From assembly GCA_036925085.1 (NCBI GenBank), contig JAUPFP010000077.1:186001-250000 (forward strand): 64,000 bases of DNA. Reading direction: 5' to 3'. The notes under the pieces were generated by a model, which ran no database searches, had not been told where the DNA came from, and saw only the letters and a list, made by a program, of their open reading frames with translations. Source of the stretch: Brachycybe producta (taxonomy: Eukaryota > Arthropoda > Diplopoda > Playtdesmida > Andrognathidae). Numbering within the stretch: position 1 is the stretch's first letter; every line of letters starts with the position of its first letter. Of the stretch, positions 1 to 64,000 are shown piece after piece. The translations under genes and the position numbers were made by a program.

Positions 1-940
1 CTTCTTCGACTTCGACTTCGACTTCTTCGACTTCTTCGACTTCTTCGACTTCTTCGACTTCGACTTCGACTTCTTCGACTTCGACTTCTTCGACTTCGAC
101 TTCTTCGACTTCGAATTCTTCGACTTCGAATTCTTCGACTTCGAATTCTTCGACTTCTTCGACTACTTCGACTACTTCGACTTCTTCGACTACTTCGACT
201 TCGACTACTTCGACTTCTTCGACTTCGACTTCGACTTCTTCGACTTTAACCTCGACTTCTTCGACTACTTCGACTTCGACTACTTCGACTTCGACTACTT
301 CGACTTCGACTTCGACTTCGACTTCGACTTCTTCGACTTCTTCGACTTCTTCGACTTCTTCGACTTCTTCGACTTCTTCGACTTCTTCGACTTCTTCGAC
401 TTCGACTTCTTCGACTTCGACTTCTTCGACTTCGACTTCTTCGACTTCGACTTCTTCGACTTCGACTTCTTCGACTTCGACTTCTTCGACTTCGACTTCT
501 TCGACTTCGACTTCTTCGACTTCGACTTCTTCGACTTCGACTTCTTCGACTTCGACTTCTTCGACTTCGACTTCTTCGGCTTCGACTTCTTCGGCTTCGA
601 CTTCTTCGGCTTCGACTTCTTCGACTTCGACTTCGACTTCTTCGACTTCGACTTCGATTTGGACTTCTTCGACTTCGACTTCGACTTCTTCGACTTTTTC
701 GACTTCGACTTCGACTTCTTCGACTTCGACTTCGACTTCTTCGACTTCGACTTCTTCGACTTCGACTTCTTCGACTTCGACTTCTTCGACTTCGACTTCT
801 TCGACTTCGACTTCTTCGACTTCGACTTCTTCGACTTCGACTTCTTCGACTTCGACTTTGACTTCTTCGACTTCGACTTCGACTTCTTCGACTTCGACTT
901 CTTCGACTTCGACTTCTTCGACTTCGACTTCTTCGACTTC

Positions 941-1374
941 GAATTCTTCGACTTCGAATTCTTCGACTTCTTCGACTACTTCGACTTCTTCGACTACTTC
1001 GACTTCGACTACTTCGACTTCGACTTCTTCGACTTCGACTTCGACTTCTTCGACTTCTTCGACTTCGACTTCGACTTCTTCGACTTCGACTTCTTCGACT
1101 TCTTCGACTTCGACTTCGACTTCTTCGACTTCGACTTCTTCGACTTCGACTTCTTCGACTTCGACTTCTTCGACTTCGAATTCTTCGACTTCGAATTCTT
1201 CGACTTCGAATTCTTCGACTTCTTCGACTACTTCGACTACTTCGACTTCTTCGACTACTTCGACTTCGACTACTTCGACTTCTTCGACTTCGACTTCGAC
1301 TTCTTCGACTTCGACCTCGACTTCTTCGACTACTTCGACTTCGACTACTTCGACTTCGACTACTTCGACATCGA
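941..1374. repeat. GAATTC/TAC-rich variant block (type example)
   Basis: GAATTC units stand next to many units in which TTC has become TAC, and the block closes with CTCGAC near 1316 and three spaced TAC units. The same block occurs at about 2878-3072, 6389-6830, 8329-8490, 11038-11420, 13759-14175, 17709-18045, 19204-19620, 23169-23505, 26690-27125, 28768-29090, 36663-36985, 38380-38700, 46231-46550, 51513-51825 and 58084-58395. It is the most diverged and most easily recognised part of the period. Confidence 0.87.
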
Positions 1375-2575
1375 CTTCGACTTCGACTTCGACTTCTTCG
1401 ACTTTTTCGACTTCTTCGACTTCTTCGACTTCTTCGACTTCGACTTCTTCGACTTCGACTTCTTCGACTTCGACTTCTTCGACTTCGACTTCTTCGACTT
1501 CGACTTCTTCGACTTCGACTTCTTCGACTTCGACTTCTTCGACTTCGACTTCTTCGACTTCGACTTCTTCGACTTCGACTTCGACTTCTTCGACTTCGAC
1601 TTCTTCGGCTTCGACTTCTTCGACTTCGACTTCGACTTCTTCGGCTTCGACTTCTTCGACTTCGACTTCGACTTCTTCGACTTCGACTTGGACTTCTTCG
1701 ACTTCGACTTCTTCGACTTTTTCGACTTCGACTTCGACTTCTTCGACTTCGACTTCGACTTCTTCGACTTCGACTTCTTCGACTTCGACTTCTTCGACTT
1801 CGACTTCTTCGACTTCGACTTCTTCGACTTCGACTTCGACTTCTTCGACTTCGACTTCTTCGACTTCGACTTCTTCGACTACGACTTCTTCGACTTCGAC
1901 TTCTTTGACTTCGACTTCTTCGACTTCGACTTCTTCGACTTCGACTTCTTCGACTTCGACTTCTTCGACTTCGACTTCGACTTCGACTTCTTCGACTTCG
2001 ACTTCGACTTCGACTTCGACTTCTTCGACTTCTTCGACTTCTTCGACTTCTTCGACTTCGACTTCTTCGACTTCGACTTCTTCGACTTCGACTTCTTCGA
2101 CTTCGACTTCTTCGACTTCGACTTCTTCGACTTCGACTTCTTCGACTTCGACTTCTTCGACTTCGACTTCTTCGACTTCGACTTATTCGGCTTCGACTTC
2201 TTCGACTTTGACTTCGACTTCTTCGGCTTCGACTTCTTCGACTTCGACTTCGACTTCTTCGACTTCGACTTCGATTTGGACTTCTTCGACTTCGACTTCG
2301 ACTTCTTCGACTTTTTCGACTTCGACTTCGACTTCTTCGACTTCGACTTCGACTTCTTCGACTTCGACTTCTTCGACTTCGACTTCTTCGACTTCGACTT
2401 CTTCGACTTCGACTTCTTCGACTTCGACTTCGACTTCTTCGACTTCGACTTCTTCGACTTCGACTTCTTCGACTTCGACTTCTGCGTCTTCGACTTCTTC
2501 GACTTCGACTTCAACTTCTTCGACTTCGACTTCTTCGACTTCGACTTCTTCGACTACGACTTCTTCGACTACGAC

Positions 2576-2648: not shown

Positions 2649-3502
2649 TCGACTTCTTCGACTTCTTCGACTTCGACTTCTTCGACTTCGACTTCTTCGA
2701 CTTCGACTTCTTCGACTTCGACTTCTTCGACTTCTTCGACTTCTTCGACTTCGACTTCTTCGACTTCGACTTCTTCGACTTCGACTTCTTCGACTTCGAC
2801 TTCTTCGACTTCGACTTCTTCGACTTCGACTTCGACTTCTTCGACTTCGACTTCTTCGACTTCGACTTCTTCGACTTCGAATTCTTCGACTTCGAATTCT
2901 TCGACTTCTTCGACTACTTCGACTACTTCGACTTCTTCGACTACTTCGACTTCGACTACTTCGACTTCGACTACTTCGACTTCTTCGACTTCGACTTCGA
3001 CTTCTTCGACTTCGACCTCGACTTCTTCGACTACTTCGACTTCGACTACTTCGACTTCGACTACTTCGACTTCGACTTCGACTTCGACTTCGACTTCTTC
3101 GACTTCTTCGACTTCTTCGACTTCTTCGACTTCGACTTCTTCGACTTCGACTTCTTCGACTTCGACTTCTTCGACTTCGACTTCTTCGACTTCTTCGACT
3201 TCGACTTCTTCGACTTCGACTTCTTCGACTTCGACTTCTTCGACTTCGACTTCTTCGGCTTCGACTTCTTCGGCTTCGACTTCTTCGACTTCGACTTCTT
3301 CGGCTTCGACTTCTTCGACTTCGACTTCGACTTCTTCGACTTCGACTTCGATTTGGACTTCTTCGACTTCGACTTCGACTTCTTCGACTTTTTCGACTTC
3401 GACTTCGACTTCTTCGACTTCGACTTCGACTTCTTCGACTTCGACTTCTTCGACTTCGACTTCTTCGACTTCGACTTCTTCGACTTCGACTTCTTCGACT
3501 TC

Positions 3503-3513
3503 GACTTTTCGAC
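3503..3513. other. Single-base deletion that breaks triplet phase
   Basis: The sequence reads GACTTTTCGAC where the repeat predicts GACTTCTTCGAC, so one base is missing. Every other length change I could follow is a multiple of three. Reading frames to the left and right of this point are therefore shifted by one, and I found no second shift from here to 64000. It could be a real deletion or a consensus error of the assembly. Confidence 0.85.
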
Positions 3514-4230: not shown

Positions 4231-4254
4231 TTAGACTTCTTTGACTACTTAGAC
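4231..4254. repeat. Diagnostic TTAGAC cassette (first of 17)
   Basis: Two TTAGAC units flank TTC, TTTGAC and TAC. The same 24-bp combination starts at 4231, 9733, 9934, 16723, 22183, 25525, 27886, 32767, 35806, 37498, 42364, 45373, 50629, 54625, 57151, 61312 and 63541. The copies at 54625, 61312 and 63541 have three TTAGAC units instead of two. Such a rare set of four linked changes can only be shared by descent, so it is the best phase marker for the HOR. In the plus-strand Ser/Thr frame each TTAGAC gives a TAG. Confidence 0.93.
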
Positions 4255-5100
4255 TTCTTCGACTACTTCGACTTCTTCGACTTCTTCGACTTCTTCGACT
4301 TCGAATTCTTCGACTTCTTCGACTACTTCGACTTCTTCGACTACTTCGACTTCGACTTCTTCGACTACTTCGACTTCGACTTCTTCGACTACTTCGACTT
4401 CGACTTCTTCGACTTCGACTTCGACTTCTTCGACTTCGAATTCGACTTCTTCGACTTCGACTTCTTCGACTTCGAATTCGACTTCTTCGACTACTTCGAC
4501 TTCTTCGACTTCTTCGACTACTTCGACTTCGACTACTTCGACTTCGACTACTTCGACTTCGACTTCTTCGACTTCGACTTCGACTTCGACTTCTTCGACT
4601 TCTTCGAATACTTCGACTTCGACTACTTCGACTTCAACTTCTTCGACTTCGACTTCGACTTCTTCGACTTCGACTTCTTCGACTTCGACTTCTTCGACTT
4701 CGACTTCTTCGACTTCGACTTCTTCGACTTCGACTTCTTCGACTTCGACTTCTTCGACTTCGACTTTTTCGACTTCGACTTCTTCGACTTCGACTTCGAC
4801 TTCTTCGACTTCGACATCGACTTCTTCGACTTCGACTTCGACTTCTTCGACTTCGACTTCGACTACTTCGACTTAGACTTCTTCGACTTCGACTTCGACT
4901 TCTTCGACTACTTCGACTTCGACTACTTCGACTTCGACTACTTCGACTTCGACTTCTTCGACTTCGACTTCGACTTCGACTTCTTCGACTACTTCGACTT
5001 CGACTACTTCGACTTCGACTTCTTCGACTTCGACTTCTTCGACTTCGACTTCGACTTCGACTTCTTCGACTTCTTCGAATACTTCGACTTCGACTACTTC

Positions 5101-5751
5101 GACTTCAACTTCTTCTACTTCGACTTCGACTTCTTCGACTTCGACTTCTTCGACTTCGACTTCTTCGACTTCGACTTCTTCGACTTCGACTTCTTCGACT
5201 TCGACTTCTTCGACTTCGACTTCTTCGACTTCGACTTCTTCGACTTCGACTTCTTCGACTTCGACTTCTTCGACTTCGACTTCGACTTCTTCGACTTCGA
5301 CTTCGACTTCTTCGACTTCGACTTCGACTTCTTCGACTTCGACTTCGACTTCTTCGACTTCGACTTCTTCGACTTCGACTTCTTCGACTTCGACTTCTTC
5401 GATTTCGACTTCTTCGACTTCGACTTCTTCGACTTCGACTTCGACTTCTTCGACTTCGACTTCTTCGACTTCGACTTCTTCGACTTCGACTTCTTCGACT
5501 TCGACTTCTTCGACTTCGACTTCTTCGACTTCGACTTCTTCGACTTCGACTTCTTCGACTTCGACTTCTTCGACTTCGACTTCTTCGACTTCGACTTCTT
5601 CGACTTCGACTTCTTCGACTTCGACTTCTTCGACTTCGACTTCTTCGACTTCGACTTCTTCGACTTCGACTTCTTCGACTTCGACTTCTTCGACTTCGAC
5701 TTCTTCGACTTCGACTTCTTCGACTTCGACTTCTTCGACTTCGACTACTTC
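5101..5751. repeat. Local tandem duplication, copy 1 (651 bp)
   Basis: The copy starts at TTCAACTTCTTCTAC and holds a run of 15-mers, four spaced 21-mers and a rare GATTTCGAC at 5401. The same order, including the rare TTCTAC and GATTTCGAC, returns exactly 651 bp downstream. Confidence 0.88.
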
Positions 5752-6402
5752 GACTTCAACTTCTTCTACTTCGACTTCGACTTCTTCGACTTCGACTTCT
5801 TCGACTTCGACTTCTTCGACTTCGACTTCTTCGACTTCGACTTCTTCGACTTCGACTTCTTCGACTTCGACTTCTTCGACTTCGACTTCTTCGACTTCGA
5901 CTTCTTCGACTTCGACTTCTTCGACTTCGACTTCGACTTCTTCGACTTCGACTTCGACTTCTTCGACTTCGACTTCGACTTCTTCGACTTCGACTTCGAC
6001 TTCTTCGACTTCGACTTCTTCGACTTCGACTTCTTCGACTTCGACTTCTTCGATTTCGACTTCTTCGACTTCGACTTCTTCGACTTCGACTTCGACTTCT
6101 TCGACTTCGACTTCTTCGACTTCGACTTCTTCGACTTCGACTTCTTCGACTTCGACTTCTTCGACTTCGACTTCTTCGACTTCGACTTCTTCGACTTCGA
6201 CTTCTTCGACTTCGACTTCTTCGACTTCGACTTCTTCGACTTCGACTTCTTCGACTTCGACTTCTTCGACTTCGACTTCTTCGACTTCGACTTCTTCGAC
6301 TTTGACTTCTTCGACTTCGACTTCGACTTCGACTTCTTCGACTTCGACTTCTTCGACTTCGACTTCTTCGACTTCGACTTCTTCGACTTCGAATTCTTCG
6401 AC
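5752..6402. repeat. Local tandem duplication, copy 2 (651 bp)
   Basis: This is the second copy of the preceding 651 bp, with TTCAACTTCTTCTAC at 5755 and GATTTCGAC at 6052. The shift of both rare markers is the same (651 bp). The right boundary is approximate because it lies within near-uniform 15-mer repeats and the TTTGAC at 6300 is private to this copy. Confidence 0.82.
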
Positions 6403-9400
6403 TTCTTCGACTACTTCGACTTCTTCGACTACTTCGACTTCGACTACTTCGACTTCGACTTCTTCGACTTCGACTTCGACTTCTTCGACTTCTTTGACTT
6501 CGACTTCGACTTCTTCGACTTCGACTTCTTCGACTTCTTCGACTTCGACTTCGACTTCTTCGACTTCGACTTCTTCGACTTCGACTTCTTCGACTTCGAC
6601 TTCTTCGACTTCGAATTCTTCGACTTCGAATTCTTCGACTTCGAATTCTTCGACTTCTTCGACTACTTCGACTACTTCGACTTCTTCGACTACTTCGACT
6701 TCGACTACTTCGACTTCTTCGACTTCGACTTCGACTTCTTCGACTTCGACCTCGACTTCTTCGACTACTTCGACTTCGACTACTTCGACTTCGACTACTT
6801 CGACTTCGACTACTTCGACTTCGACTTCGACTTCGACTTCGACTTCTTCGACTTCTTCGACTTCTTCGACTTCTTCGACTTCGACTTCTTCGACTTCGAC
6901 TTCTTCGACTTCGACTTCTTCGACTTCGACTTCTTCGACTTCGACTTCTCCGACTTCGACTTCTCCGACTTCGACTTCTTCGACTTCGACTTCTTCGACT
7001 TCGACTTCTTCGACTTCGACTTCTTCGACTTCGACTTCTTCGACTTCGACTTCTTCGACTTCGACTTCTTCGACTTCGACTTCTTCGACTTCGACTTCTT
7101 CGGCTTCGACTTCTTCGACTTCGACTTCTTCGACTTCGACTTCTTCGACTTCGACTTCTTCGGCTTCGACTTCTTCGACTTCGACTTCTTCGGCTTCGAC
7201 TTCTTCGACTTCGACTTCGACTTCTTCGACTTCGACTTCGATTTGGACTTCTTCGACTTCGACTTCGACTTCTTCGACTTCGACTTCGACTTCTTCGACT
7301 TTTTCGACTTCGACTTCGACTTCTTCGACTTCGACTTCGACTTCTTCGACTTCGACTTCTTCGACTTCGACTTCTTCGACTTCGACTTCTTCGACTTCGA
7401 CTTCTTCGACTTCGACTTCTTCGACTTCGACTTCTTCGACTTCGACTTCTTCGACTTCGACTTCTTCGACTTCGACTTCTTCGACTTCGACTTCTTCGAC
7501 TTCGACTTCTTCGACTTCGACTTCTTCGACTTCGACTTCTTCGACTTCGACTTCTTCGACTTCGACTTCTGCGTCTTCGACTTCTTCGACTTCGACTTCG
7601 ACTTCTTCGACTTCGACTTCTTCGACTTCGACTTCTTCGACTACGACTTCTTCGACTTCGACTTCTTCGACTTCGACTTCTTCGACTTCGACTTCTTCGA
7701 CTTCGACTTCTTCGACTTCGACTTCTTCGGCTTCATCTTCGACTTCGACTTCGACTTCGACTTCGACTTCGACTTCGACTTCGACTTCGACTTCTTCGAC
7801 TTCTTCGACTTCTTCGACTTCGACTTCTTCGACTTCGACTTCTTCGACTTCGACTTCGACTTCTTCGACTTCGACTTCTTCGACTTCGACTTCTTCGACT
7901 TCGACTTCTTCGACTTCGACTTCTTCGACTTCGACTTCTTCGACTTCGACTTCTTCGACTTCGACTTCTTCGACTTCGACTTCTTCGACTTCGACTTCTT
8001 CGACTTCGACTTTGACTTCTTCGACTTCGACTTCGACTTCGACTTCTTCGACTTCGACTTCTTCGACTTCGACTTCTTCGACTTAGAATTCTTCGACTTC
8101 TTCGACTACTTCGACTTCTTCGACTACTTCGACTTCGACTACTTCGACTTCGACTTCTTCGAATTCGACTTCGACTTCTTCGACTTCTTCGACTTCGACT
8201 TCGACTTCTTCGACTTCGATTTCTTCGACTTCTTCGACTTCGACTTCGACTTCTTCGACTTCGACTTCTTCGACTTCGACTTCTTCGACTTCGACTTCTT
8301 CGACTTCGACTTCTTCGACTTCGAATTCTTCGACTTCTTCGACTACTTCGACTACTTCGACTTCTTCGACTACTTCGACTTCGACTACTTCGACTTCTTC
8401 GACTTCGACTTCGACTTCTTCGACTTCGACCTCGACTTCTTCGACTACTTCGACTTCGACTACTTCGACTTCGACTACTTCGACTTCGACTTCGACTTCT
8501 TCGACTTCTTCGACTTCGACTTCTTCGACTTCGACTTCTTCGACTTCGACTTCTTCGACTTCGACTTCTTCGACTTCGACTTCTTCGACTTCGACTTCTT
8601 CGACTTCGACTTCTTCGACTTCGACTTCTTCGACTTCAACTTCTTCGACTTCGACTTCTTCGACTTCGACTTCTTCGGCTTCGACTTCTTCTACTTCGAC
8701 TTCTTCGGCTTCGACTTCTTCGACTTCGACTTCGACTTCTTCGACTTCGACTTCGATTTGGACTTCTTCGACTTCGACTTCGACTTCTTCGACTTTTTCG
8801 ACTTCGACTTCGACTTCTTCGACTTCGACTTCGACTTCTTCGACTTCGACTTCTTCGACTTCGACTTCTTCGACTTCGACTTCTTCGACTTCGACTTCTT
8901 CGACTTCGACTTCTTCGACTTCGACTTCTTCGACTTCGACTTCTTCGACTTCGACTTCTTCGACTTCGACTTCTTCGACTTCGACTTCTTCGACTTCGAC
9001 TTCTTCGACTTCGACTTCTTCGACTTCGACTTCTTCGACTTCGACTTCGACTTCTTCGACTTCGACTTCTTCGACTTCGACTTCTGCGTCTTCGACTTCT
9101 TCGACTTCGACTTCAACTTCTTCGACTTCTTCGACTTCGACTTCTTCGACTTCGACTTCTTCGACTACGACTTCTTCGACTTCGACTTCTTCGACTTCGA
9201 CTTCTTCGACTTCGACTTCTTCGACTTCGACTTCTTCGACTTCGACTTCTTCGACTTCGACTTCTTCGGCTTCATCTTCGACTTCGACTTCGACTTCGAC
9301 TTCGACTTCGACTTCGACTTCGACTTCGACTTCTTCGACTTCTTCGACTTCGACTTCGACTTCTTCGACTTCGACTTCTTCGACTTCGACTTCTTCGACT

Positions 9401-9732
9401 TCGACTTCTTCGACTTCGACTTCTTTGACTTCTTCGACTTCTTCGACTTCGACTTCTGCGTCTTCGACTTCTTCGACTTCGACTTCGACTTCTTCGACTT
9501 CGACTTCGACTTCTTCGACTTCGACTTCTTCGACTTCGACTTCGACTTCTTCGACTTCGTCTTCTTCGACTTCTTCGACTTCGACTTCTTCGACTTCGAC
9601 TTCGACTTCGACTTCGACTTCTTCGACTTCGACTTCGACTTCTTCGACTTCGACTTCGACTTCTTCGACTTCTTCGACTTCGACTTCTTCGACTTCGACT
9701 TCGACTTCTTCGACTTCGACTTCTTCGACTAC

Positions 9733-9957
9733 TTAGACTTCTTTGACTACTTAGACTTCTTCGACTACTTCGACTTCTTCGACTTCTTCGACTTCTTCGA
9801 CTTCGACTTCGACTTCGACTTCGACTTCTTCGACTTCGACTTCGACTTCTTCGACTTCGACTTCGACTTCTTCGACTTCTTCGACTTCTTCGACTTCGAC
9901 TTCGACTTCTTCGACTTCGACTTCTTCGACTACTTAGACTTCTTTGACTACTTAGAC
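9733..9957. repeat. Two TTAGAC cassettes 201 bp apart
   Basis: Cassettes at 9733-9756 and 9934-9957 enclose only about 177 bp of plain 6-mer and 9-mer units. Elsewhere the cassettes are 1.7-6.8 kb apart. The simplest reading is a short tandem duplication of the period end, including the cassette. Confidence 0.85.
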
Positions 9958-11599
9958 TTCTTCGACTACTTCGACTTCTTCGACTACTTCGACTTCGACT
10001 TCTTCGACTACTTCGACTTCGACTTCTTCGACTACTTCGACTTCGACTTCTTCGACTTCGACTTCGACTTCTTCGACTTCGAATTCGACTTCTTCGACTT
10101 CGACTTCTTCGACTTCGACTTCTTCGACTTCGACTTCGACTTCTTCGACTACTTCGACTTCTTCGACTTCTTCGACTACTTCGACTTCGACTACTTCGAC
10201 TTAGACTTCTTCGACTTCGACTTCGACTTCTTCGACTACTTCGACTTCGACTACTTCGACTTCGACTACTTCGACTTCGACTACTTCGACTTCGACTTCT
10301 TCGACTTCGACTTCGACTTCGACTTCTTCGACTTCTTCGAATACTTCGACTTCGACTACTTCGACTTCAACTTCTTCGACTTCGACTTCGACTTCTTCGA
10401 CTTCGACTTCTTCGACTTCGACTTCTTCGACTTCGACTTCTTCGACTTCGACTTCTTCGACTTCGACTTCTTCGACTTCGACTTCTTCGACTTCGACTTC
10501 GACTTCTTCGACTTCGACATCGACTTCTTCGACTTCGACTTCTGCATCTTCGACTTCTTCGACTTCGACTTCAACTTCTTCGACTTCGACTTCTTCGACT
10601 TCGACTTCTTCGACTACGACTTCTTCGACTTCGACTTCGACTTCTTCGACTTCGACTTCTTCGACTTCGACTTCTTCGGCTTCATCTTCGACTTCGACTT
10701 CGACTTCGACTTCGACTTCTTCGACTTCGACTTCTTCGACTTCGACTTTGACTTCTTCGACTTCGACTTCGACTTCGACTTCTTCGACTTCGACTTCTTC
10801 GACTTCGACTTCTTCGACTTCTTCGACTTCTTCGACTTCGACTTCTTCGACTTCAACTTCTTCGACTTCGACTTCTTCGACTTCGACTTCTTCGACTTCG
10901 ACTTCTTCGACTTCGACTTCTTCGACTTCGACTTCTTCGACTTCGACTTCTTCGACTTCGACTTTGACTTCTTCGACTTCGACTTTGACTTCGACTTCTT
11001 CGACTTCGACTTCTTCGACTTCGACTTCTTCGACTTCGAATTCTTCGACTTCTTCGACTACTTCGACTTCTTCGACTACTTCGACTTCGACTACTTCGAC
11101 TTCGACTTCTTCGACTTCGACTTCGACTTCTTCGACTTCTTCGACTTCGACTTCGACTTCTTCGACTTCGACTTCTTCGACTTCTTCGACTTCGACTTCG
11201 ACTTCTTCGACTTCGACTTCTTCGACTTCGAATTCTTCGTCTTCGAATTCTTCGACTTCTTCGACTACTTCGACTACTTCGACTTCTTCGACTACTTCGA
11301 CTTCGACTACTTCGACTTCTTCGACTTCGACTTCGACTTCTTCGACTTCGACCTCGACTTCTTCGACTACTTCGACTTCGACTACTTCGACTTCGACTAC
11401 TTCGACTTCGACTACTTCGACTTCGACTTCGACTTCGACTTCTTCGACTTCTTCGACTTCTTCGACTTCGACTTCTTCGACTTCGACTTCTTCGACTTCG
11501 ACTTCTTCGACTTCGACTTCTTCGACTTCGACTTCTTCGACTTCGACTTCTTCGACTTCGACTTCTTCGACTTCGACTTCTTCGACTTCGACTTCTTCG

Positions 11600-45300: not shown

Positions 45301-45396
45301 TTCTTCGACTTCTTCGACTTCGACTTCTTCGACTTCGACTTCGACTTCTTCGACTTCGACTTCTTCGACTACTTAGACTTCTTTGACTACTTAGAC
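42388..45396. repeat. HOR segment, cassette to cassette, 3009 bp
   Basis: This is the twin of 32791-35829, 30 bp shorter. The same repeated GAATAC-TTCAAC starts are seen near 42765, 43257, 44179 and 44318, with GATTTGGAC at 44404. The rare GACGTCGAC near 43502 matches the one near 33920. Confidence 0.86.
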
Positions 45397-50652: not shown

Positions 50653-53600
50653 TTCTTCGACTACTTCGACTTCTTCGACTTCTTCGACTTCTTCGACTTC
50701 GAATTCTTCGACTTCTTCGACTACTTCGACTTCTTCGACTACTTCGACTTCGACTTCTTCGACTACTTCGACTTCGACTTCTTCGACTACTTCGACTTCG
50801 ACTTCTTCGACTTCGACTTCGACTTCTTCGACTTCGAATTCGACTTCTTCGACTTCGACTTCGACTTCTTCGACTACTTCGACTTCTTCGACTTCTTCGA
50901 CTACTTCGACTTCGACTACTTCGACTTAGACTTCTTCGACTTCGACTTCGACTTCTTCGACTACTTCGACTTCGACTACTTCGACTTCGACTACTTCGAC
51001 TTCGACTTCTTCGACTTCGACTTCGACTTCGACTTCTTCGACTTCTTCGAATACTTCGACTTCGACTACTTCGACTTCAACTTCTTCGACTTCGACTTCG
51101 ACTTCTTCGACTTCGACTTCTTCGACTTCGACTTCTTCGACTTCGACTTCTTCGACTTCGACTTCTTCGACTTCGACTTCTTCGACTTCGACTTCTTCGA
51201 CTTCGACTTCTTCGACTTCGACTTCTTCGACTTCGACTTCTTCGACTTCGACTTCTTCGACTTCGACTTCGACTTCTTCGACTTCGACTTCGACTTCTTC
51301 GACTTCGACTTCGACTTCTTCGACTTCGACTTCGACTTCTTCGACTTCGACTTCTTCGACTTCGACTTCTTCGACTTCGACTTCTTCGACTTCTTCGACT
51401 TCGACTTCTTCGACTTCGACTTCTTCGACTTCGACTTCTTCGACTTCTTCGACTTCGACTTCTTCGACTTTGACTTCTTCGACTTCGACTTCGACTTCGA
51501 CTTCTTCGACTTCGAATTCTTCGACTTCTTCGACTACTTCGACTTCTTCGACTACTTCGACTTCGACTACTTCGACTTCGACTTCTTCGACTTCGACTTC
51601 TTCGACTTCGACTTCTTCGACTTCGACTTCTTCGACTTCGAATTCTTCGACTTCGAATTCTTCGACTTCTTCGACTACTTCGACTACTTCGACTTCTTCG
51701 ACTACTTCGACTTCGACTACTTCGACTTCTTCGACTTCGACTTCGACTTTGACTTCTTCGACTTCGACCTCGACTTCTTCGACTACTTCGACTTCGACTA
51801 CTTCGACTTCGACTACTTCGACTTCGACTTCGACTTCTTCGACTTCTTCGACTTCTTCGACTTCTTCGACTTCTTCGACTTCGACTTCTTCGACTTCGAC
51901 TTCTTCGACTTCGACTTCTTCGACTTCGACTTCTTCGACTTCGACTTCTTCGACTTCGACTTCTTCGACTTCGACTTCTTCGACTTCGACTTCTTCGACT
52001 TCGACTTCTTCGACTTCGACTTCTTCGACTTCGACTTCTTCGGCTTCGACTTCTTCAACTTCGACTTCTTTGGCTTCGACTTCTTCGACTTCGACTTCGA
52101 CTTCTTCGACTTCGACTTCGATTTGGACTTCTTCGACTTCGACTTCGACTTCTTCGACTTTTTCGACTTCGACTTCGACTTCTTCGACTTTGACTTCGAC
52201 TTCTTCGACTTCGACTTCTTCGACTTCGACTTCTTCGACTTCGACTTCTTCGACTTCGACTTCTTCGACTTCGACTTCTTCGACTTCGACTTCTTCGACT
52301 TCGACTTCGACTTCTTCGACTTCGACTTCTTCGACTTCGACTTCTTCGACTTCGACTTCTGCGTCTTCGACTTCTTCGACTTCGACTTCAACTTCTTCGA
52401 CTTCTTCGACTTCGACTTCTTCGACTTCGACTTCTTCGACTACGACTTCTTCGACTTCGACTTCTTCGACTTCGACTTCTTCGACTTCGACTTCTTCGAC
52501 TTCGACTTCTTCGGCTTCATCTTCGACTTCGACTTCGACTTCGACTTCGACTTCGACTTCTTCGACTTCGACTTCTTCGACTTCGACTTCTTCGACTTCG
52601 ACTTCTGCGTCTTCGACTTCTTCGACTTCGACTTCAACTTCTTCGACTTCTTGGACTTCGACTTGTTCGACTTCGACTTCTTCGACTTCGACTTCTTCGA
52701 CTTCGACTTCTTCGACTTCGACTTCTTCGACTTCGACTTCTTCGACTTCGACTTCGACTTCGACTTCTTCGACTTCGACTTCTTCGACTTCTTCGACTTC
52801 TTCGACTTCTTCGACTTCTTCGACTTCGACTTCTTCGACTTCGACTTCTTCGACTTCGACTTCTTCGACTTCGACTTCTTCGACTTCGACTTCTTCGACT
52901 TCGACTTCTTCGACTTCGACTTCTTCGACTTCGACTTCTTCGACTTCGACTTCTTCGACTTCGACTTCTTCGACTTCGACTTCTTCGACTTCGACTTCTT
53001 CGACTTCGACTTCTTCGACTTCGACTTCTTCGACTTCGACTTCTTCGACTTCGACTTCTTCGACTTCGACTTCTTCGACTTCTTCGACTTCTTCGACTTC
53101 TTCGACTTCTTCGACTTCTTCGACTTCTTCGACTTCGACTTCTTCGACTTCTTCGACTTCTTCGACTTCGACTTCTTCCACTTCGACTTCTTCGACTTCG
53201 ACTTCTTCGACTTCGACTTCTTCGACTTGGACTTCTTCGACTTCGACTTCTTCCACTTCGACTTCTTCGACTTCGACTTCTTCGACTTCGACTTCTTCGA
53301 CTTCGACTTCGACTTCTTCGACTTCGACTTCGACTTCTTCGACTTCGACTTCGACTTCTTCGACTTCGACTTCGACTTCTTCGACTTCTTCGACTTCGAC
53401 TTCTTCGACTTCGACTTCTTCGACTTCTTCGACTTCGACTTCTTCGACTTCGACTTCTTCGACTTCGACTTCTTCGACTTCGACTTCTTCCACTTCGACT
53501 TCTTCGACTTCGACTTCTTCGACTTCGACTTCTTCGACTTCTTCGACTTCTTCGACTTCGACTTCTTCGACTTCTTCGACTTCTTCGACTTCGACTTCTT

Positions 53601-54666
53601 CGACTTCTTCGACTTCGACTTCTTCAACTTCTTCGACTTCGACTTCTTCGACTTCGACTTCTTCGACTTCGACTTCTTCGACTTCGACTTCTTCGACTTC
53701 GACTTCTTCGACTTCGACTTCTTCGACTTCGACTTTTTCGACTTCGACTTCTTCCACTTCGACTTCTTCGACTTCGACTTCTTCGACTTCGACTTCTTCG
53801 ACTTCGACTTTGACTTCGACTTCTTCGGCTTCGACTTCTTCGACTTCAACTTCGACTTCTTCGACTTCGACTTCTTCGACTTCGACTTCTTCGACTTCGA
53901 CTTCTTCGACTTCGACTTCGACTTCTTCGACTTTGACTTCTTCGACTTCGACTTCGACTTCAACTTCTTCGACTACTACGACTTCTTCGACTTCTTTGAC
54001 TACTTCGACTTCGACTACTTCGACTTCGACTTCTTCGACTTCGACTTCGACTTCTTCGACTACTTCGACTTTGACTACTTCGACTTCGACTTCTTCGACT
54101 TCGACTTCGACTTCGACTTCTTCCACTTCGACTTCGACTTCTTCGACTTCGACTTCGACTTCTTCGACTTCTTCGACTTCTTCGACTTCGACTTCGACTT
54201 CGACTTCGACTTCGACTTCGGCTTCGACTTCTTCGACTTCGACTTCTTCGACTTCGACTTCTTCGACTTCGACTTCTTCGACTTCGACTTCTTCGACTTC
54301 GACTTCTTCGACTTCGACTTCTTCGACTTCGACTTCTTCGACTTCGACTTCTTCGACTTCTTCGACTTCGACTTCGACTTCTTCGACTTCGACTTCTTCG
54401 ACTTCGACTTCTTCGACTTTGACTTCTTCGACTTCTTCGACTTCTTCGACTTCGACTTCTTCGATTTCGACTTCTGCGTCTTCGACTTCTTCGACTTCGA
54501 CTTCGACTTCTTCGACTTCGACTTCGACTTCTTCGACTTCGACTTCGACTTCTTCGACTTCGACTTCTTCGACTTCTTCAACTTCTTCGACTTCTTCGAC
54601 TTCGACTTCGACTTCTTCGACTACTTAGACTTCTTTGACTACTTAGACTTCTTTGACTACTTAGAC
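50653..54666. repeat. Right-family HOR segment with tripled cassette, about 4.0 kb
   Basis: The start is normal: GAATTC near 50701, GAATTCGAC near 50837, TTAGAC near 50926, GAATAC near 51050, TTTGAC near 51470, the GAATTC/TAC block near 51513-51825, and GATTTGGAC at 52120. From about 53070 a different order appears: a 9-mer run, repeated TTCCAC units (about 53178, 53251, 53490, 53753), TTGGAC near 53228, TACTACGAC near 53970 and TTTGAC pairs. A TTCGGC lies inside the 6-mer run near 54218. It ends in a cassette with three TTAGAC units (54625-54666). Confidence 0.85.
53070..53133. repeat. Pure 9-mer run (TTCTTCGAC), about 7 units
   Basis: The 9-mer repeats about seven times without a 6-mer between. 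The same place in related copies carries about twice as many units (55308-55440, 59693-59823, 61975-62120), so run length is variable between copies. Confidence 0.85.
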
Positions 54667-57174
54667 TTCTTCGACTACTTCGACTTCTTCGACTACTTCG
54701 ACTTCTTCGACTTCTTCGACTTCGACTTCTTCGACTTCGACTTCTTCGGCTTCATCTTCGACTTCGACTTCGACTTCTTCGACTTCGACTTCTTCGACTT
54801 CGACTTCTTCGACTTCGACTTCTGCGTCTTCGACTTCTTCGACTTCGACTTCAACTTCTTCGACTTCTTGGACTTCGACTTGTTCGACTTCGACTTCTTC
54901 GACTTCGACTTCTTCGACTTCGACTTCTTCGACTTCGACTTCTTCGACTTCGACTTCTTCGACTTCGACTTCGACTTCGACTTCTTCGACTTCGACTTCT
55001 TCGACTTCTTCGACTTCTTCGACTTCTTCGACTTCTTCGACTTCGACTTCTTCGACTTCGACTTCTTCGACTTCGACTTCTTCGACTTCGACTTCTTCGA
55101 CTTCGACTTCTTCGACTTCGACTTCTTCGACTTCGACTTCTTCGACTTCGACTTCTTCGACTTCGACTTCTTCGACTTCGACTTCTTCGACTTCGACTTC
55201 TTCGACTTCGACTTCTTCGACTTCGACTTCTTCGACTTCGACTTCTTCGACTTCGACTTCTTCGACTTCGACTTCTTCGACTTCGACTTCTTCGACTTCG
55301 ACTTCTTCGACTTCTTCGACTTCTTCGACTTCTTCGACTTCTTCGACTTCTTCGACTTCTTCGACTTCTTCGACTTCTTCGACTTCTTCGACTTCTTCGA
55401 CTTCTTCGACTTCTTCGACTTCTTCGACTTCTTCGACTTCGACTTCTTCGACTTCGACTTCTTCGACTTCTTCGACTTCTTCGACTTCGACTTCTTCGAC
55501 TTCTTCGACTTCGACTTCTTCCACTTCGACTTCTTCGACTTCGACTTCTTCGACTTCGACTTCTTCGACTTGGACTTCTTCGACTTCGACTTCTTCCACT
55601 TCGACTTCTTCGACTTCGACTTCTTCGACTTCGACTTCTTCGACTTCGACTTCGACTTCTTCGACTTCGACTTCGACTTCTTCGACTTCGACTTCGACTT
55701 CTTCGACTTCGACTTCGACTTCTTCGACTTCTTCGACTTCGACTTCTTCGACTTCGACTTCTTCGACTTCTTCGACTTCGACTTCTTCGACTTCGACTTC
55801 TTCGACTTCGACTTCTTCCACTTCGACTTCTTCGACTTCGACTTCTTCGACTTCGACTTCTTCGACTTCTTCGACTTCTTCGACTTCGACTTCTTCGACT
55901 TCTTCGACTTCGACTTCTGCGTCTTCGACTTCTTCGACTTCGACTTCTTCGACTTCGACTTCGACTTCTTCGACTTCGACTTCTTCGACTTCGACTTCGA
56001 CTTCTTCGACTTCGTCTTCTTCGACTTCTTCGACTTCGACTTCTTCGACTTCGACTTCGACTTCGACTTCGACTTCTTCGACTTCGACTTCGACTTCTTC
56101 GACTTCGACTTCGACTTCTTCGACTTCTTCGACTTCGACTTCTTCGACTTCGACTTCGACTTCTTCGACTTCGACTTCTTCGACTACTTCGACTTCGACT
56201 ACTTCGACTTCGACTACTTCGACTTCGACTTCTTCGACTTCGACTTCGACTTCGACTTCTTCGACTTTTTCGACTTCGACTTCGACTTCTTCGACTTCGA
56301 CTTCGACTTCTTCGACTTCGACTTCTTCGACTTCTTCGACTTCGACTTCTTCGACTTCGACTTCTTCGACTTCGACTTCTTCGACTTCGACTTCTTCGAC
56401 TTCGACTTCTTCGACTTCGACTTCTTCGACTTCGACTTCTGCGTCTTCGACTTCTTCGACTTCGACTTCAACTTTTCCGACTTCGACTTCTTCGACTTCG
56501 ACTTCTTCGACTACGACTTCTTCGACTTCGACTTCTTCGACTTCGACTTCTTCGACTTCGACTTCTTCGACTTCGACTTCTTCGACTTCGACTTCTTCGG
56601 CTTCATCTTCGACTTCGACTTCGACTTCGACTTCGACTTCGACTTCGACTTCTTCGACTTCTTCGACTTCTTCGACTTCTTCGACTTCTTCGACTTCGAC
56701 TTCTTCGACTTCGACTTCTTCGACTTCGACTTCTTCGACTTCGACTTCTTCGACTTCGACTTCTTCGACTTCGACTTCTTCGACTTCTTCGACTTCTTCG
56801 ACTTCTTCGACTTCTTCGACTTCGACTTCTTCGACTTCTTCGACTTCGACTTCTTCGACTTCGACTTCTTCGACTTCTTCGACTTCGACTTCTTCGACTT
56901 CGACTTCGACTTCTTCGACTTCGACTTCTGCGTCTTCGACTTCTTCGACTTCGACTTCGACTTCTTCGACTTCGACTTCGACTTCTTCGACTTCGACTTC
57001 TTCGACTTCGACTTCGACTTCTTCGACTTCGTCTTCTTCGACTTCTTCGACTTCGACTTCTTCGACTTCGACTTCGACTTCGACTTCGACTTCGACTTCG
57101 ACTTCTTCGACTTCGACTTCGACTTCTTCGACTTCGACTTCTTCGCCTACTTAGACTTCTTTGACTACTTAGAC
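54667..57174. repeat. Mosaic HOR segment: right-family start, left-family end, about 2.5 kb
   Basis: The first 1.2 kb has right-family marks: GCTTCATC near 54752, TGCGTC near 54822, the TTGGAC/TTG pair near 54870, a long 9-mer run, and TTCCAC near 55520, 55590 and 55818. From about 55900 it switches to the order of about 49.4-50.65 kb: TGCGTC, TTCGTC, TTTTTCGAC near 56265, TTTTCCGAC near 56473 (for TTCTCCGAC), and TTCGCC before a double cassette at 57151. The switch lies in plain 9-mer and 15-mer repeats near 55850-55910. Confidence 0.83.
55308..55440. repeat. Pure 9-mer run (TTCTTCGAC), about 14-15 units
   Basis: An unbroken run of the 9-mer, without the 6-mer that usually alternates with it. 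It sits just before the TTCCAC-bearing units, the same place as the shorter run at 53070-53133. Confidence 0.87.
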
Positions 57175-60100
57175 TTCTTCGACTACTTCGACTTCTTCGA
57201 CTTCTTCGACTTCTTCGACTTCGAATTCTTCGACTTCTTCGACTACTTCGACTTCTTCGACTACTTCGACTTCGACTTCTTCGACTACTTCGACTTCGAC
57301 TTCTTCGACTACTTCGACTTCGACTTCTTCGACTTCGACTTCGACTTCTTCGACTTCGAATTCGACTTCTTCGACTTCGACTTCGACTTCTTCGACTACT
57401 TCGACTTCTTCGACTTCTTCGACTACTTCGACTTCGACTACTTTGACTTAGACTTCTTCGACTTAGACTTCTTCGACTTCGACTTCGACTTCTTCGACTA
57501 CTTCGACTTCGACTACTTCGACTTCGACTACTTCGACTTCGACTTCTTCGACTTCGACTTCGACTTCGACTTCTTCGACTTCTTCGAATACTTCGACTTC
57601 GACTACTTCGACTTCAACTTCTTCGACTTCGACTTCGACTTCTTCGACTTCGACTTCTTCGACTTCGACTTCTTCGACTTCGACTTCTTCGACTTCGACT
57701 TCTTCGACTTCGACTTCTTCGACTTCGACTTCTTCGACTTCGACTTCTTCGACTTCGACTTCTTCGACTTCGACTTCTTCGACTTCGACTTCGACTTCTT
57801 CGACTTCGACTTCGACTTCTTCGACTTCGACTTCGACTTCTTCGACTTCGACTTCGACTTCTTCGACTTCGACTTCGACTTCTTCGACTTCGACTTCGAC
57901 TTCTTCGACTTCGACTTCTTCGACTTCGACTTCTTCGACTTCGACTTCTTCGACTTCTTCGACTTCGACTTCTTCGACTTCGACTTCTTCGACTTCGACT
58001 TCTTCGACTTCGACTTCTTCGACTTCGACTTCTTCGACTTTGACTTCTTCGACTTCGACTTCGACTTCGACTTCTTCGACTTCGAATTCTTCGACTTCTT
58101 CGACTACTTCGACTTCTTCGACTACTTCGACTTCGACTACTTCGACTTCGACTTCTTCGACTTCGACTTCTTCGACTTCGACTTCTTCGACTTCGACTTC
58201 TTCGACTTCGAATTCTTCGACTTCGAATTCTTCGACTTCTTCGACTACTTCGACTACTTCGACTTCTTCGATTACTTCGACTTCGACTACTTCGACTTCT
58301 TCGACTTCGACTTCGACTTCGACTTCTTCGACTTCGACCTCGACTTCTTCGACTACTTCGACTTCGACTACTTCGACTTCGACTACTTCGACTTCGACTT
58401 CGACTTCTTCGACTTCTTCGACTTCTTCGACTTCTTCGACTTCTTCGACTTCGACTTCTTCGACTTCGACTTCTTCGACTTCGACTTCTTCGACTTCGAC
58501 TTCTTCGACTTCGACTTCTTCGACTTCGACTTCTTCGACTTCGACTTCTTCGACTTCGACTTCTTCGACTTCGACTTCTTCGACTTCGACTTCTTCGACT
58601 TCGACTTCTTCGGCTTCGACTTCTTCAACTTCGACTTCTTTGGCTTCGACTTCTTCGACTTCGACTTCGACTTCTTCGACTTCGACTTCGATTTGGACTT
58701 CTTCGACTTCGACTTCGACTTCTTCGACTTTTTCGACTTCGACTTCGACTTCTTCGACTTTGACTTCGACTTCTTCGACTTCGACTTCTTCGACTTCGAC
58801 TTCTTCGACTTCGACTTCTTCGACTTCGACTTCTTCGACTTCGACTTCTTCGACTTCGACTTCTTCGACTTCGACTTCTTCGACTTCGACTTCGACTTCT
58901 TCGACTTCGACTTCTTCGACTTCGACTTCTTCGACTTCGACTTCTGCGTCTTCGACTTCTTCGACTTCGACTTCAACTTCTTCGACTTCTTCGACTTCGA
59001 CTTCTTCGACTTCGACTTCTTCGACTACGACTTCTTCGACTTCGACTTCTTCGACTTCGACTTCTTCGACTTCGACTTCTTCGACTTCGACTTCTTCGGC
59101 TTCATCTTCGACTTCGACTTCGACTTCGACTTCGACTTCGACTTCTTCGACTTCTTCGACTTCGACTTCTTCGACTTCGACTTCTTCGACTTCGACTTCT
59201 GCGTCTTCGACTTCTTCGACTTCGACTTCAACTTCTTCGACTTCTTGGACTTCGACTTGTTCGACTTCGACTTCTTCGACTTCGACTTCTTCGACTTCGA
59301 CTTCTTCGACTTCGACTTCTTCGACTTCGACTTCTTCGACTTCGACTTCGACTTCGACTTCTTCGACTTCGACTTCTTCGACTTCTTCGACTTCTTCGAC
59401 TTCTTCGACTTCTTCGACTTCGACTTCTTCGACTTCGACTTCTTCGACTTCGACTTCTTCGACTTCGACTTCTTCGACTTCGACTTCTTCGACTTCGACT
59501 TCTTCGACTTCGACTTCTTCGACTTCGACTTCTTCGACTTCGACTTCTTCGACTTCGACTTCTTCGACTTCGACTTCTTCGACTTCGACTTCTTCGACTT
59601 CGACTTCTTCGACTTCGACTTCTTCGACTTCGACTTCTTCGACTTCGACTTCTTCGACTTCGACTTCTTCGACTTCGACTTCTTCGACTTCGACTTCTTC
59701 GACTTCTTCGACTTCTTCGACTTCTTCGACTTCTTCGACTTCTTCGACTTCTTCGACTTCTTCGACTTCTTCGACTTCTTCGACTTCTTCGACTTCTTCG
59801 ACTTCTTCGACTTCTTCGACTTCGACTTCTTCGACTTCGACTTCTTCGACTTCTTCGACTTCGACTTCTTCGACTTCTTCGACTTCGACTTCTTCCACTT
59901 CGACTTCTTCGACTTCGACTTCTTCGACTTCGACTTCTTCGACTTGGACTTCTTCGACTTCGACTTCTTCCACTTCGACTTCTTCGACTTCGACTTCTTC
60001 GACTTCGACTTCTTCGACTTCGACTTCGACTTCTTCGACTTCGACTTCGACTTCTTCGACTTCGACTTCGACTTCTTCGACTTCGACTTCGACTTCTTCG

Positions 60101-61353
60101 ACTTCTTCGACTTCGACTTCTTCGACTTCGACTTCTTCGACTTCTTCGACTTCGACTTCTTCGACTTCGACTTCTTCGACTTCGACTTCTTCCACTTCGA
60201 CTTCTTCGACTTCGACTTCTTCGACTTCGACTTCTTCGACTTCTTCGACTTCTTCGACTTCGACTTCTTCGACTTCTTCGACTTCTTCGACTTCGACTTC
60301 TTCGACTTCTTCGACTTCGACTTCTTCAACTTCTTCGACTTCGACTTCTTCGACTTCGACTTCTTCGACTTCGACTTCTTCGACTTCGACTTCTTCGACT
60401 TCGACTTCTTCGACTTCGACTTTTTCGACTTCGACTTCTTCCACTTCGACTTCTTCGACTTCGACTTCTTCGACTTCGACTTCTTCGACTTCGACTTTGA
60501 CTTCGACTTCTTCGACTTCGACTTCTTCGACTTCAACTTCGACTTCTTCGACTTCGACTTCTTCGACTTCGACTTCTTCGACTTCGACTTCTTCGACTTC
60601 GACTTCGACTTCTTCGACTTTGACTTCTTCGACTTCGACTTCGACTTCAACTTCTTCGACTACTACGACTTCTTCGACTTCTTTGACTACTTCGACTTCG
60701 ACTACTTCGACTTCGACTTCTTCGACTTCGACTTCGACTTCTTCGACTACTTCGACTTTGACTACTTCGACTTCGACTTCTTCGACTTCGACTTCGACTT
60801 CGACTTCTTCCACTTCGACTTCGACTTCTTCGACTTCGACTTCGACTTCTTCGACTTCTTCGACTTCTTCGACTTCGACTTCGACTTCGACTTCGACTTC
60901 GACTTCGGCTTCGACTTCTTCGACTTCGACTTCTTCGACTTCGACTTCTTCGACTTCGACTTCTTCGACTTCGACTTCTTCGACTTCGACTTCTTCGACT
61001 TCGACTTCTTCGACTTCGACTTCTTCGACTTCGACTTCTTCGACTTCTTCGACTTCGACTTCGACTTCTTCGACTTCGACTTCTTCGACTTCGACTTCTT
61101 CGACTTTGACTTCTTCGACTTCTTCGACTTCTTCGACTTCGACTTCTTCGATTTCGACTTCTGCGTCTTCGACTTCTTCGACTTCGACTTCGACTTCTTC
61201 GACTTCGACTTCGACTTCTTCGACTTCGACTTCGACTTCTTCGACTTCGACTTCTTCGACTTCTTCAACTTCTTCGACTTCTTCGACTTCGACTTCGACT
61301 TCTTCGACTACTTAGACTTCTTTGACTACTTAGACTTCTTTGACTACTTAGAC
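57175..61353. repeat. Right-family HOR segment with tripled cassette, about 4.2 kb
   Basis: This is a near copy of 50653-54666, about 165 bp longer. Matching marks include TTTGAC at about 58040 (51470 in the other copy), GATTTGGAC at 58690, the TTCAAC-TTTGGC pair near 58626, TACTACGAC near 60657, TTCGGC in the 6-mer run near 60904 and the tripled cassette at 61312. Private changes include a doubled TTAGAC near 57448/57466, GATTAC near 58270 and a longer 9-mer run. Confidence 0.87.
59693..59823. repeat. Pure 9-mer run (TTCTTCGAC), about 14 units
   Basis: An unbroken 9-mer run at the same place in the period as those at 53070, 55308 and 61975. It accounts for part of the extra length of this HOR copy over 50653-54666. 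Confidence 0.86.
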
Positions 61354-63582
61354 TTCTTCGACTACTTCGACTTCTTCGACTACTTCGACTTCTTCGACTT
61401 CTTCGACTTCGACTTCTTCGACTTCGACTTCTTCGGCTTCATCTTCGACTTCGACTTCGACTTCTTCGACTTCGACTTCTTCGACTTCGACTTCTTCGAC
61501 TTCGACTTCTGCGTCTTCGACTTCTTCGACTTCGACTTCAACTTCTTCGACTTCTTGGACTTCGACTTGTTCGACTTCGACTTCTTCGACTTCGACTTCT
61601 TCGACTTCGACTTCTTCGACTTCGACTTCTTCGACTTCGACTTCGACTTCGACTTCTTCGACTTCGACTTCTTCGACTTCTTCGACTTCTTCGACTTCTT
61701 CGACTTCTTCGACTTCGACTTCTTCGACTTCGACTTCTTCGACTTCGACTTCTTCGACTTCGACTTCTTCGACTTCGACTTCTTCGACTTCGACTTCTTC
61801 GACTTCGACTTCTTCGACTTCGACTTCTTCGACTTCGACTTCTTCGACTTCGACTTCTTCGACTTCGACTTCTTCGACTTCGACTTCTTCGACTTCGACT
61901 TCTTCGACTTCGACTTCTTCGACTTCGACTTCTTCGACTTCGACTTCTTCGACTTCGACTTCTTCGACTTCGACTTCTTCGACTTCTTCGACTTCTTCGA
62001 CTTCTTCGACTTCTTCGACTTCTTCGACTTCTTCGACTTCTTCGACTTCTTCGACTTCTTCGACTTCTTCGACTTCTTCGACTTCTTCGACTTCTTCGAC
62101 TTCTTCGACTTCTTCGACTTCGACTTCTTCGACTTCGACTTCTTCGACTTCTTCGACTTCGACTTCTTCGACTTCTTCGACTTCGACTTCTTCATCTTCG
62201 ACTTCTTCGACTTCGACTTCTTCGACTTCGACTTCTTCGACTTGGACTTCTTCGACTTCGACTTCTTCCACTTCGACTTCTTCGACTTCGACTTCTTCGA
62301 CTTCGACTTCTTCGACTTCGACTTCGACTTCTTCGACTTCGACTTCGACTTCTTCGACTTCGACTTCGACTTCTTCGACTTCGACTTCGACTTCTTCGAC
62401 TTCTTCGACTTCGACTTCTTCGACTTCGACTTCTTCGACTTCTTCGACTTCTTCGACTTCGACTTCTTCGACTTCGACTTCTTCGACTTCGACTTCTTCC
62501 ACTTCGACTTCTTCGACTTCGACTTCTTCGACTTCGACTTCTTCGACTTCTTCGACTTCTTCGACTTCGACTTCTTCGACTTCTTCGACTTCTTCGACTT
62601 CGACTTCTTCGACTTCTTCGACTTCGACTTCTTCGACTTCTTCGACTTCGACTTCTTCGACTTCGACTTCTTCGACTTCGACTTCTTCGACTTCGACTTC
62701 TTCGACTTCGACTTCTTCGACTTCGACTTCTTCGACTTCGACTTCTTCGACTTCGACTTCTTCCACTTCGACTTCTTCGACTTCGACTTCTTCGACTTCG
62801 ACTTCTTCGACTTCGACTTCGACTTCTTCGACTTTGACTTCTTCGACTTCGACTTCGACTTCAACTTCTTCGACTACTACGACTTCTTCGACTTCTTTGA
62901 CTACTTCGACTTCGACTACTTCGACTTCGACTTCTTCGACTTCGACTTCGACTTCTTCGACTACTTCGACTTTGACTACTTCGACTTCGACTTCTTCGAC
63001 TTCGACTTCGACTTCGACTTCTTCCACTTCGACTTCGACTTCTTCGACTTCGACTTCGACTTCTTCGACTTCTTCGACTTCTTCGACTTCGACTTCGACT
63101 TCGACTTCGACTTCGACTTCGGCTTCGACTTCTTCGACTTCGACTTCTTCGACTTCGACTTCTTCGACTTCGACTTCTTCGACTTCGACTTCTTCGACTT
63201 CGACTTCTTCGACTTCGACTTCTTCGACTTCGACTTCTTCGACTTCGACTTCTTCGACTTCTTCGACTTCGACTTCGACTTCTTCGACTTCGACTTCTTC
63301 GACTTCGACTTCTTCGACTTTGACTTCTTCGACTTCTTCGACTTCTTCGACTTCGACTTCTTCGACTTCGACTTCTTCGATTTCGACTTCTGCGTCTTCG
63401 ACTTCTTCGACTTCGACTTCGACTTCTTCGACTTCGACTTCGACTTCTTCGACTTCGACTTCGACTTCTTCGACTTCGACTTCTTCGACTTCTTCAACTT
63501 CTTCGACTTCTTCGACTTCGACTTCGACTTCTTCGACTACTTAGACTTCTTTGACTACTTAGACTTCTTTGACTACTTAGAC
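61354..63582. repeat. Right-family HOR segment lacking its first half, about 2.2 kb
   Basis: It starts like 54667 (GCTTCATC near 61438, TGCGTC near 61512, TTGGAC/TTG pair near 61556, long 9-mer run, TTCATC near 62194, TTCCAC near 62268). It then stays in the right family to its end (TTCCAC near 62498, 62761 and 63025, TACTACGAC near 62871, TTCGGC in the 6-mer run near 63117, TTCAAC near 63495). It ends in a tripled cassette at 63541-63582. The GAATTC/TAC block, CTCGAC and GATTTGGAC are absent. Confidence 0.85.
61975..62120. repeat. Pure 9-mer run (TTCTTCGAC), about 16 units
   Basis: This is the longest unbroken 9-mer run I see in the window. Compared with about 7 units at 53070-53133 it suggests slippage expansion toward the right end. 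Confidence 0.86.
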
Positions 63583-64000
63583 TTCTTCGACTACTTCGAC
63601 TTCTTCGACTACTTCAACTTCTTCGACTTCTTCGACTTCGAATTCTTCGACTTCTTCGACTACTTCGACTTCTTCGACTACTTCGACTACTTCGACTTCG
63701 ACTTCTTCGACTACTTCGACTTCGACTTCTTCGACTACTTCGACTTCTTCGACTACTTCGACTTCGACTTCTTCAACTTCGACTTCGACTTCTTCGACTT
63801 CGACTTCGACTTCTTCGACTTCGACTTCTTCGACTTCGACTTCTTCGACTTCGACTTCTTCGACTTCGACTTCTTCGACTTCGACTTCTTCGACTTCGAC
63901 TTCGACTTCTTCGACTTTGACTTCTTCGACTTCGACTTCGACTTCAACTTCTTCGACTTCGAATTCTTCGACTTCGAATTCTTCGACTTCTTCGACTACT
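63583..64000. repeat. Start of the next HOR segment, cut by window end
   Basis: GAATTC near 63641 and TAC-rich units follow the cassette as usual, but the normal GAATTCGAC, TTAGAC and GAATAC steps are skipped. Instead TTCAAC (about 63775), a short 15-mer run, TTTGAC near 63916 and two GAATTC sites (about 63961 and 63976) follow within 400 bp. The segment runs off the window. Confidence 0.8.

Follow-up and report, generated by a model that had tools for sequence, protein, structure and literature searches.

Organization of the satellite array

Can DNA built from units of 6 and 9 bp hold its sequence variants in order over kilobases, and does such DNA grow by exchange of kilobase blocks as well as by slippage? 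The question is raised by a 64,000-nucleotide stretch of the Brachycybe producta genome (295.3 Mb, 442 contigs), positions 186001 to 250000 of contig C77, hereafter the window, which a preliminary description had presented as a higher-order repeat (HOR) with about twenty variant landmarks recurring in fixed order between TTAGAC cassettes. We found that the window is a nested block duplication, that is, an irregular HOR, and we hold with high confidence that the array is a satellite, probably non-coding and confined to a single locus of about 390 kb, which has grown by small slips in unit number and by duplication of kilobase blocks.

The window is filled by a single tandem array (10 to 63990, period 15, 4,220.7 copies according to Tandem Repeats Finder), in which TTCGAC (6 bp) and TTCTTCGAC (9 bp) units are combined. 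The proposed construction from 6- and 9-bp units was borne out, as 4,149 of the 8,414 unit tokens, variants included, measure 6 bp and 4,129 measure 9 bp, with 136 longer tokens. TTCGAC occurs 7,812 times on one strand, its reverse complement, GTCGAA, is absent from the whole window, and the proportion of G plus C is flat (0.457 to 0.467). Read in register, the window contains just 17 triplet types, all of them TTC, GAC or one step off, and its sole register break lies in a T run, so that a base error is possible there. Being a long head-to-tail array of a short unit, the array is satellite DNA, and it extends past both edges of the window.

Landmark order and block duplications

We treated as landmarks the variant triplets left after removal of TTC, GAC and TAC; there are 816 in the window, and they belong to 14 types rather than the twenty or so previously announced. 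Many of the strings between TTAGAC cassettes share a common grammar (cassette, GAA-AAC, GAA-GAA-CTC, GGC-GGC-GAT-TTG-TTT, TGC-GTC-AAC, GGC-ATC, TGC-GTC), whose modules have been lost, doubled or fused between cassettes; in two of the TTAGAC clusters (13027 and 40756) the customary context, TAC-TTA-GAC-TTC-TTT-GAC, is missing. The entropy of a landmark given the previous one is 2.146 bits, compared with 3.315 ± 0.016 bits in 200 shuffles, and given the previous two it is 1.268 bits, compared with 2.231 bits in shuffles. Furthermore, 27 collinear chains of landmarks, which together cover 96% of the window, exceed the top score of 30 null runs in which the labels were permuted in pairs (374.4 versus 76.8, the latter serving as the threshold). 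The conservation of landmark order over kilobases is beyond chance, and in this respect the claim of a fixed order holds; what does not hold is a constant length, since the start-to-start spacing of the 18 clusters varies from 1.6 to 5.5 kb.

The longest exact off-diagonal match measures 4,389 bp at an offset of 5,460 and includes 98 variant triplets, followed by one of 3,618 bp at an offset of 9,612, with 76 variant triplets inside. At the level of whole units, exact matches at offsets of at least 1 kb reach 4,374 bp, and 18 of them are at least 600 bp long, whereas the longest match is 150 bp in unit shuffles (10 runs) and 792 bp in Markov strings of order 8 (5 runs). Thus, off-diagonal lines exceed those of shuffled unit strings, as had been anticipated. 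The underlying duplications comprise two young pairs, both adjacent, two-copy and more than 99.9% identical apart from 15-bp indels, and an older pair (Table 1). Aligned inside the limits of the table, the 5.46-kb pair shows a single substitution (14812) together with one 15-bp indel, and the 9.6-kb pair two substitutions (31144 and 31216) together with three 15-bp indels, which makes four 15-bp indels and three substitutions for the young pairs together; these differences document small slips in unit number as well as substitutions. The older pair corresponds to a chain of 81 landmarks (score, 258.9), and its alignment contains 38 triplet differences and many indels.

The landmark offsets were scanned against 100 permutations of the labels over the landmark positions, with a smoothing of ±30 bp. 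The strongest are those of 9,585 (2.6 times the null mean) and 5,430 (2.2 times), both above the maximum of the permutations (926), and each represents one separate two-copy tandem duplication; weaker offsets of 29.2, 14.8, 28.6, 11.2 and 6.7 kb also lie above that maximum. Of the four diagonals predicted by the preliminary description, two (5.46 and 9.6 kb) proved to be real, while the offsets of 3.0 and 4.9 kb reach 1.2 times the null mean each and stay below the maximum of the 100 permutations. Low-scoring single chains at 2.9 to 3.0 kb (82.9) and at 4.66 to 4.77 kb (83.8) clear the threshold for chains. A constant HOR period for the window was ruled out by the offset scan and by the cassette spacing.

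By the broad definition, ordered variant units recurring over kilobases, the window is an HOR; by the strict one, a single multimer of constant length repeated many times, it is not, as no common period exists in the window. It follows from the varying cassette spacing and the lack of a constant period that the HOR is irregular.

Forward simulations, with rates that were chosen rather than fitted, with 6 runs per setting and counting only matches that hold at least 5 variants, gave a longest exact match of 0 to 120 bp under slippage plus substitution and of 402 to 1,917 bp when 1% of block events (20 to 1,300 units) was added. Slippage-only matches being short and those with block events longer, block duplication is needed under the simulation settings used. 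The earlier proposal of kilobase block exchange beside slippage is supported both by this failure of the slippage-only runs and by the near-identical 5.46- and 9.6-kb duplications.

Table 1. Features of the window, in window coordinates
Feature	Position	Strand	Basis and details
Satellite array, TTCGAC (6 bp) and TTCTTCGAC (9 bp) units, in which a 15-bp dimer dominates	1..64000	+	Unit tokens, motif counts
Sole triplet-register break (TTCGACTTTTCGAC)	3500..3513	+	T run
TTAGAC cassettes, 57 TTAGAC in 18 clusters	4231..63582	+	Clusters joined within 1.2 kb
TTAGAC cluster starts 1 to 9	4231, 9733, 13027, 16723, 22183, 25525, 27886, 32767, 35806
TTAGAC cluster starts 10 to 18	37498, 40756, 42364, 45373, 50629, 54625, 57151, 61312, 63541
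5.46-kb tandem duplication, copy 1	13690..19203	+	Exact pieces of 807, 567 and 4389 bp at offsets 5445, 5460 and 5460
5.46-kb tandem duplication, copy 2	19135..24663	+	Same exact pieces, copy alignment
9.6-kb tandem duplication, copy 1	27526..37188	+	Exact pieces of 3618, 501, 1659, 1824 and 2277 bp at offsets 9612, 9612, 9597, 9582 and 9567
9.6-kb tandem duplication, copy 2	37138..46755	+	Same exact pieces, copy alignment
Older, partly rearranged pair	49411..63976	+	49411-57223 versus 55918-63976, offset 6.5 to 6.75 kb

Extent and surroundings of the array

On C77, the array was found in the sampled intervals 1 to 10, 86 to 96 and 106 to 116 kb, and it runs without gaps from 126 to about 256.5 kb, beyond which a TTCAAC satellite was sampled up to the contig end (695,745). 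On contig C74, it starts near 629 kb and was found at 630 to 650, 660 to 670 and 700 to 710 kb as well as over the final 10 kb, which end at 760,440. The left edge on C74 (628.5 to 630 kb) carries a retrotransposon gag fragment (PF03732, E value of 1.1e-05, in one of the eight frames scanned), separated from the homogeneous array by about 0.8 kb of degenerate, mixed TTCAAC/TTTGAC/TTCGGC units. Throughout the 295 Mb of the genome, a TTCGAC 30-mer was matched 9,645 times in forward and 3 times in reverse orientation, and its density in 16 sampled pieces is 17 to 36 per kb; at that density, C77:1-256.5 kb and C74 from about 629 kb to its end, which come to some 388 kb provided that they are filled throughout, would explain nearly the whole count. 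Since these two stretches match the total, a single locus of about 390 kb is the probable extent of the array, as far as this extrapolation reaches.

A 30-mer carrying one of the landmarks has 34 matches in the genome, all on the plus strand within C77:166406-254145, and other landmark strings occupy the sampled parts of C77:1-136 kb, of C77:146 to about 166 kb and of C74. Exact matches of at least 90 bp, in a between-piece list that skips starts occurring more than 12 times and is thereby incomplete, contain at most one variant between the window and C74, at most two for C77:1-10 kb, at most four for the sampled C77:86-136 kb and at most five for C77:136-166 kb. Landmark order is mostly local.

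The TTCAAC satellite adjoining the array differs by one base from TTCGAC and likewise has kilobase block duplications; it lies on both strands genome-wide, with 26.9% variant triplets versus 6.5% in the TTCGAC array. Its 30-mer has 56,236 matches on both strands; TTCAAC read backwards cannot serve as a control for this count, since the reversal merely shifts the phase of the tandem repeat. The 9-bp unit AACTTCTTCAAC does not occur in 83.5 kb of TTCAAC satellite. Block duplications outside the window measure 2,933 bp at an offset of 3,414 in the TTCGAC array of C74 and, in the sampled TTCAAC satellite of C77 (256.5 to 695.7 kb), 2,612 bp at 2,603 and 2,905 bp at 3,237.

Alternative explanations

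Several observations weigh against the account given above, and we consider them here together with the alternatives to irregular block duplication. Slippage and point mutation alone, with the long diagonals as chance matches of low-complexity DNA, would fit the 15-bp gains and losses, and order-8 Markov strings yield 2,904 to 6,673 matches of 150 bp, near the real 6,682. This closeness makes only the long matches informative, and there the real 4,374 bp stands against the short matches of the slippage-only runs, with 98 variant triplets inside one exact match, so that we give this explanation practically no credit, even though the simulation with block events also falls short of the real length. 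A regular HOR with a single multimeric unit, in the manner of alpha satellite, agrees with the landmark order kept between TTAGAC cassettes, but it is very unlikely given the variable spacing of the cassettes, the weakness of the 3.0- and 4.9-kb offsets and the origin of the two strongest offsets in two separate duplications. More weight is due to the possibility that the near-identical 5.46- and 9.6-kb pairs are false duplications produced by assembly within a repeat: both the end of C74 and the start of C77 fall within the array, and register breaks of 1 to 2 bases are frequent in the terminal part of C74, which indicates that assembly is hard here; the copies, moreover, differ at just 2 and 5 places. 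In particular, the last 4.7 kb of C74 (5300 to 10000 of piece L039) contain 78 of the 81 breaks of that piece, and they are probably unpolished sequence with base errors. We nevertheless consider an assembly artifact unlikely, as the window has one register break in its 64 kb and older, diverged block pairs occur both in the window and in other satellite pieces; since older pairs exist, the process is likely real even were one pair false.

Further points against our reading concern order, locality and descent. Given three previous landmarks, the entropy is above that of the shuffles (0.746 versus 0.572 bits), which we take as an effect of sparse contexts; the null models are simple and leave the relatedness of blocks unmodelled, and chains in the landmark-pair null score up to 77. 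The single locus is extrapolated from about 210 kb read, the intervals between the sampled pieces being C77:10-86, 96-106 and 116-126 kb along with the larger share of C74:670-750 kb, and one landmark alone was probed genome-wide. TTAGAC is present in all 15 pieces (those used for the triplet counts, from which L039 was excluded), the TTA-TTT-TTA cassette also occurs beyond the territory of the window, and the separation of territories is incomplete, as TTA-TTT-TTA and TGC-GTC-AAC are both found at C77:86-96 kb. Finally, TTCGAC may derive from TTCAAC, or the reverse.

A different reading is that of a giant gene, since one frame stays open over 20,596 triplets as far as the window end, about 20,160 of them after the plus-strand break at 3508 in the Phe/Asp phase. 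Such a gene, in which the part of the frame after 3508 would encode a Phe-Asp repeat protein, is suggested by the absence of stops among 66,743 in-register triplets (15 pieces) and by the single register break in 64 kb. Moreover, double changes within a triplet are found in 5 cells (3 types) compared with 222 cells (18 types) across neighboring triplets, about 44 times fewer in cells that are not independent owing to amplification, whereas the TTCAAC satellite has 487 cells (20 types) within and 645 (23 types) across. TTC and GAC are each more than one substitution away from any stop codon; no more than 5 of the 66,743 triplets lie further than one step from TTC or GAC, so a long open frame is to be expected. 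Changes to Cys, Gly and Val are common in the window (72, 86 and 94), and beside 1,623 TAC triplets we would expect, from the rates of TTT, TTA and TTG, about 19 TAT and about 20 TAA or TAG, whereas 2 and 0 were seen; with 2 TAT against about 19, the shortage of this silent change is much like that of the stops. The 15 pieces also contain 16 register breaks, some of which may be base errors, as at the end of C74. Two of them lie in duplicated blocks (L013 2472/3631, offset 1,159; L028 424/7565, offset 7,141), the identical frame-breaking indel appearing in both copies as if passed on with the block. A giant gene is therefore exceedingly improbable, and it is hardly credible that translation of the array into a giant Phe-Asp repeat protein, ongoing or recent, has kept a single triplet register free of stops over tens of kilobases, with the depletion of within-triplet double changes as a trace of constraint. 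We think, as a conjecture, that 3-bp unit steps set variant triplets side by side and create no double changes within them. The best interpretation of the huge open frame is that it arises from the motif as a by-product, and automated gene prediction could yield a spurious protein of more than 20,000 residues here.

Comparison with known satellites

In alpha satellite, ordered variants are amplified in blocks and form separate territories, features shared by the array; its monomer of 171 bp is arranged in regular multimers, whereas we found 6- to 9-bp units in irregular blocks. Human satellite III (GAATG/CATTC), DYZ1 and HSat2 are alike in being short-unit satellites with variants in multi-kilobase HORs. 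A 2008 study (PMC2588610) gives HORs of 3,360, 3,600 and 5,630 bp for human GAATG pentamer arrays, and PMC4022460 gives units of 3.6 kb for DYZ1 and 1.77 kb for HSat2; "simple sequence" human arrays are also reported to have a domain structure (PMC2588610; PMC4022460). Hence, the view that multi-kilobase HORs are unusual where the units are very short is not supported. The array does not belong to human satellite II/III, which is based on the CATTC pentamer, as its units are TTCGAC/TTCTTCGAC and its HOR length is not regular. The satellites of the Drosophila ananassae subgroup also form HOR-structured arrays, with far longer monomers of 99 to 411 bp (PMC11917152). The array is thus a new example of an already known type of structure, the short-unit satellite with multi-kilobase HOR. 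Among the literature matches listed, no title concerned a TTCGAC or TTCAAC satellite; this refers to titles only and implies no claim that they are undescribed.

Other features of the genome

A TTAGG 5-mer array has 7,853 matches genome-wide, and the genome search returned none for (TTTAGGG)4 or (TTAGGG)4; we take TTAGG repeats to point to an arthropod. Copies of 5.8S ribosomal DNA on contigs C57, C82, C153 and C155 lie about 21 to 52 kb apart (40 scored), and upstream of 5.8S there are repeated segments of a few hundred base pairs. The mitochondrial-type contig C442 reads with TGA as Trp, and COX1-like copies on large contigs (C1, 12.70 Mb; C17, 3.3 to 4.0 Mb) are likely nuclear copies of mitochondrial DNA.

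Proposed history and significance

It is possible to hypothesize that the TTCGAC variant arose inside the widespread TTCAAC hexamer satellite and was then amplified to about 390 kb, and that point mutations in single units, which are seen today as variants, became the landmarks. Small slips in unit number, mostly of 15 bp, separate the young copies, and tandem duplications of up to 9.6 kb are present as copies, which unequal exchange or a similar process of recombination or repair may have produced; the sequence is compatible with unequal sister exchange, with replication-based copying and with other routes of block copying. Repeated, overlapping block duplications would have kept the landmark order without a fixed period, while parts of the array may have diverged into territories with different landmark strings. 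The array is a clean natural record of 15-bp slips and tandem duplications of 5 to 10 kb on very simple DNA, in which the young copies still show individual exchange steps.

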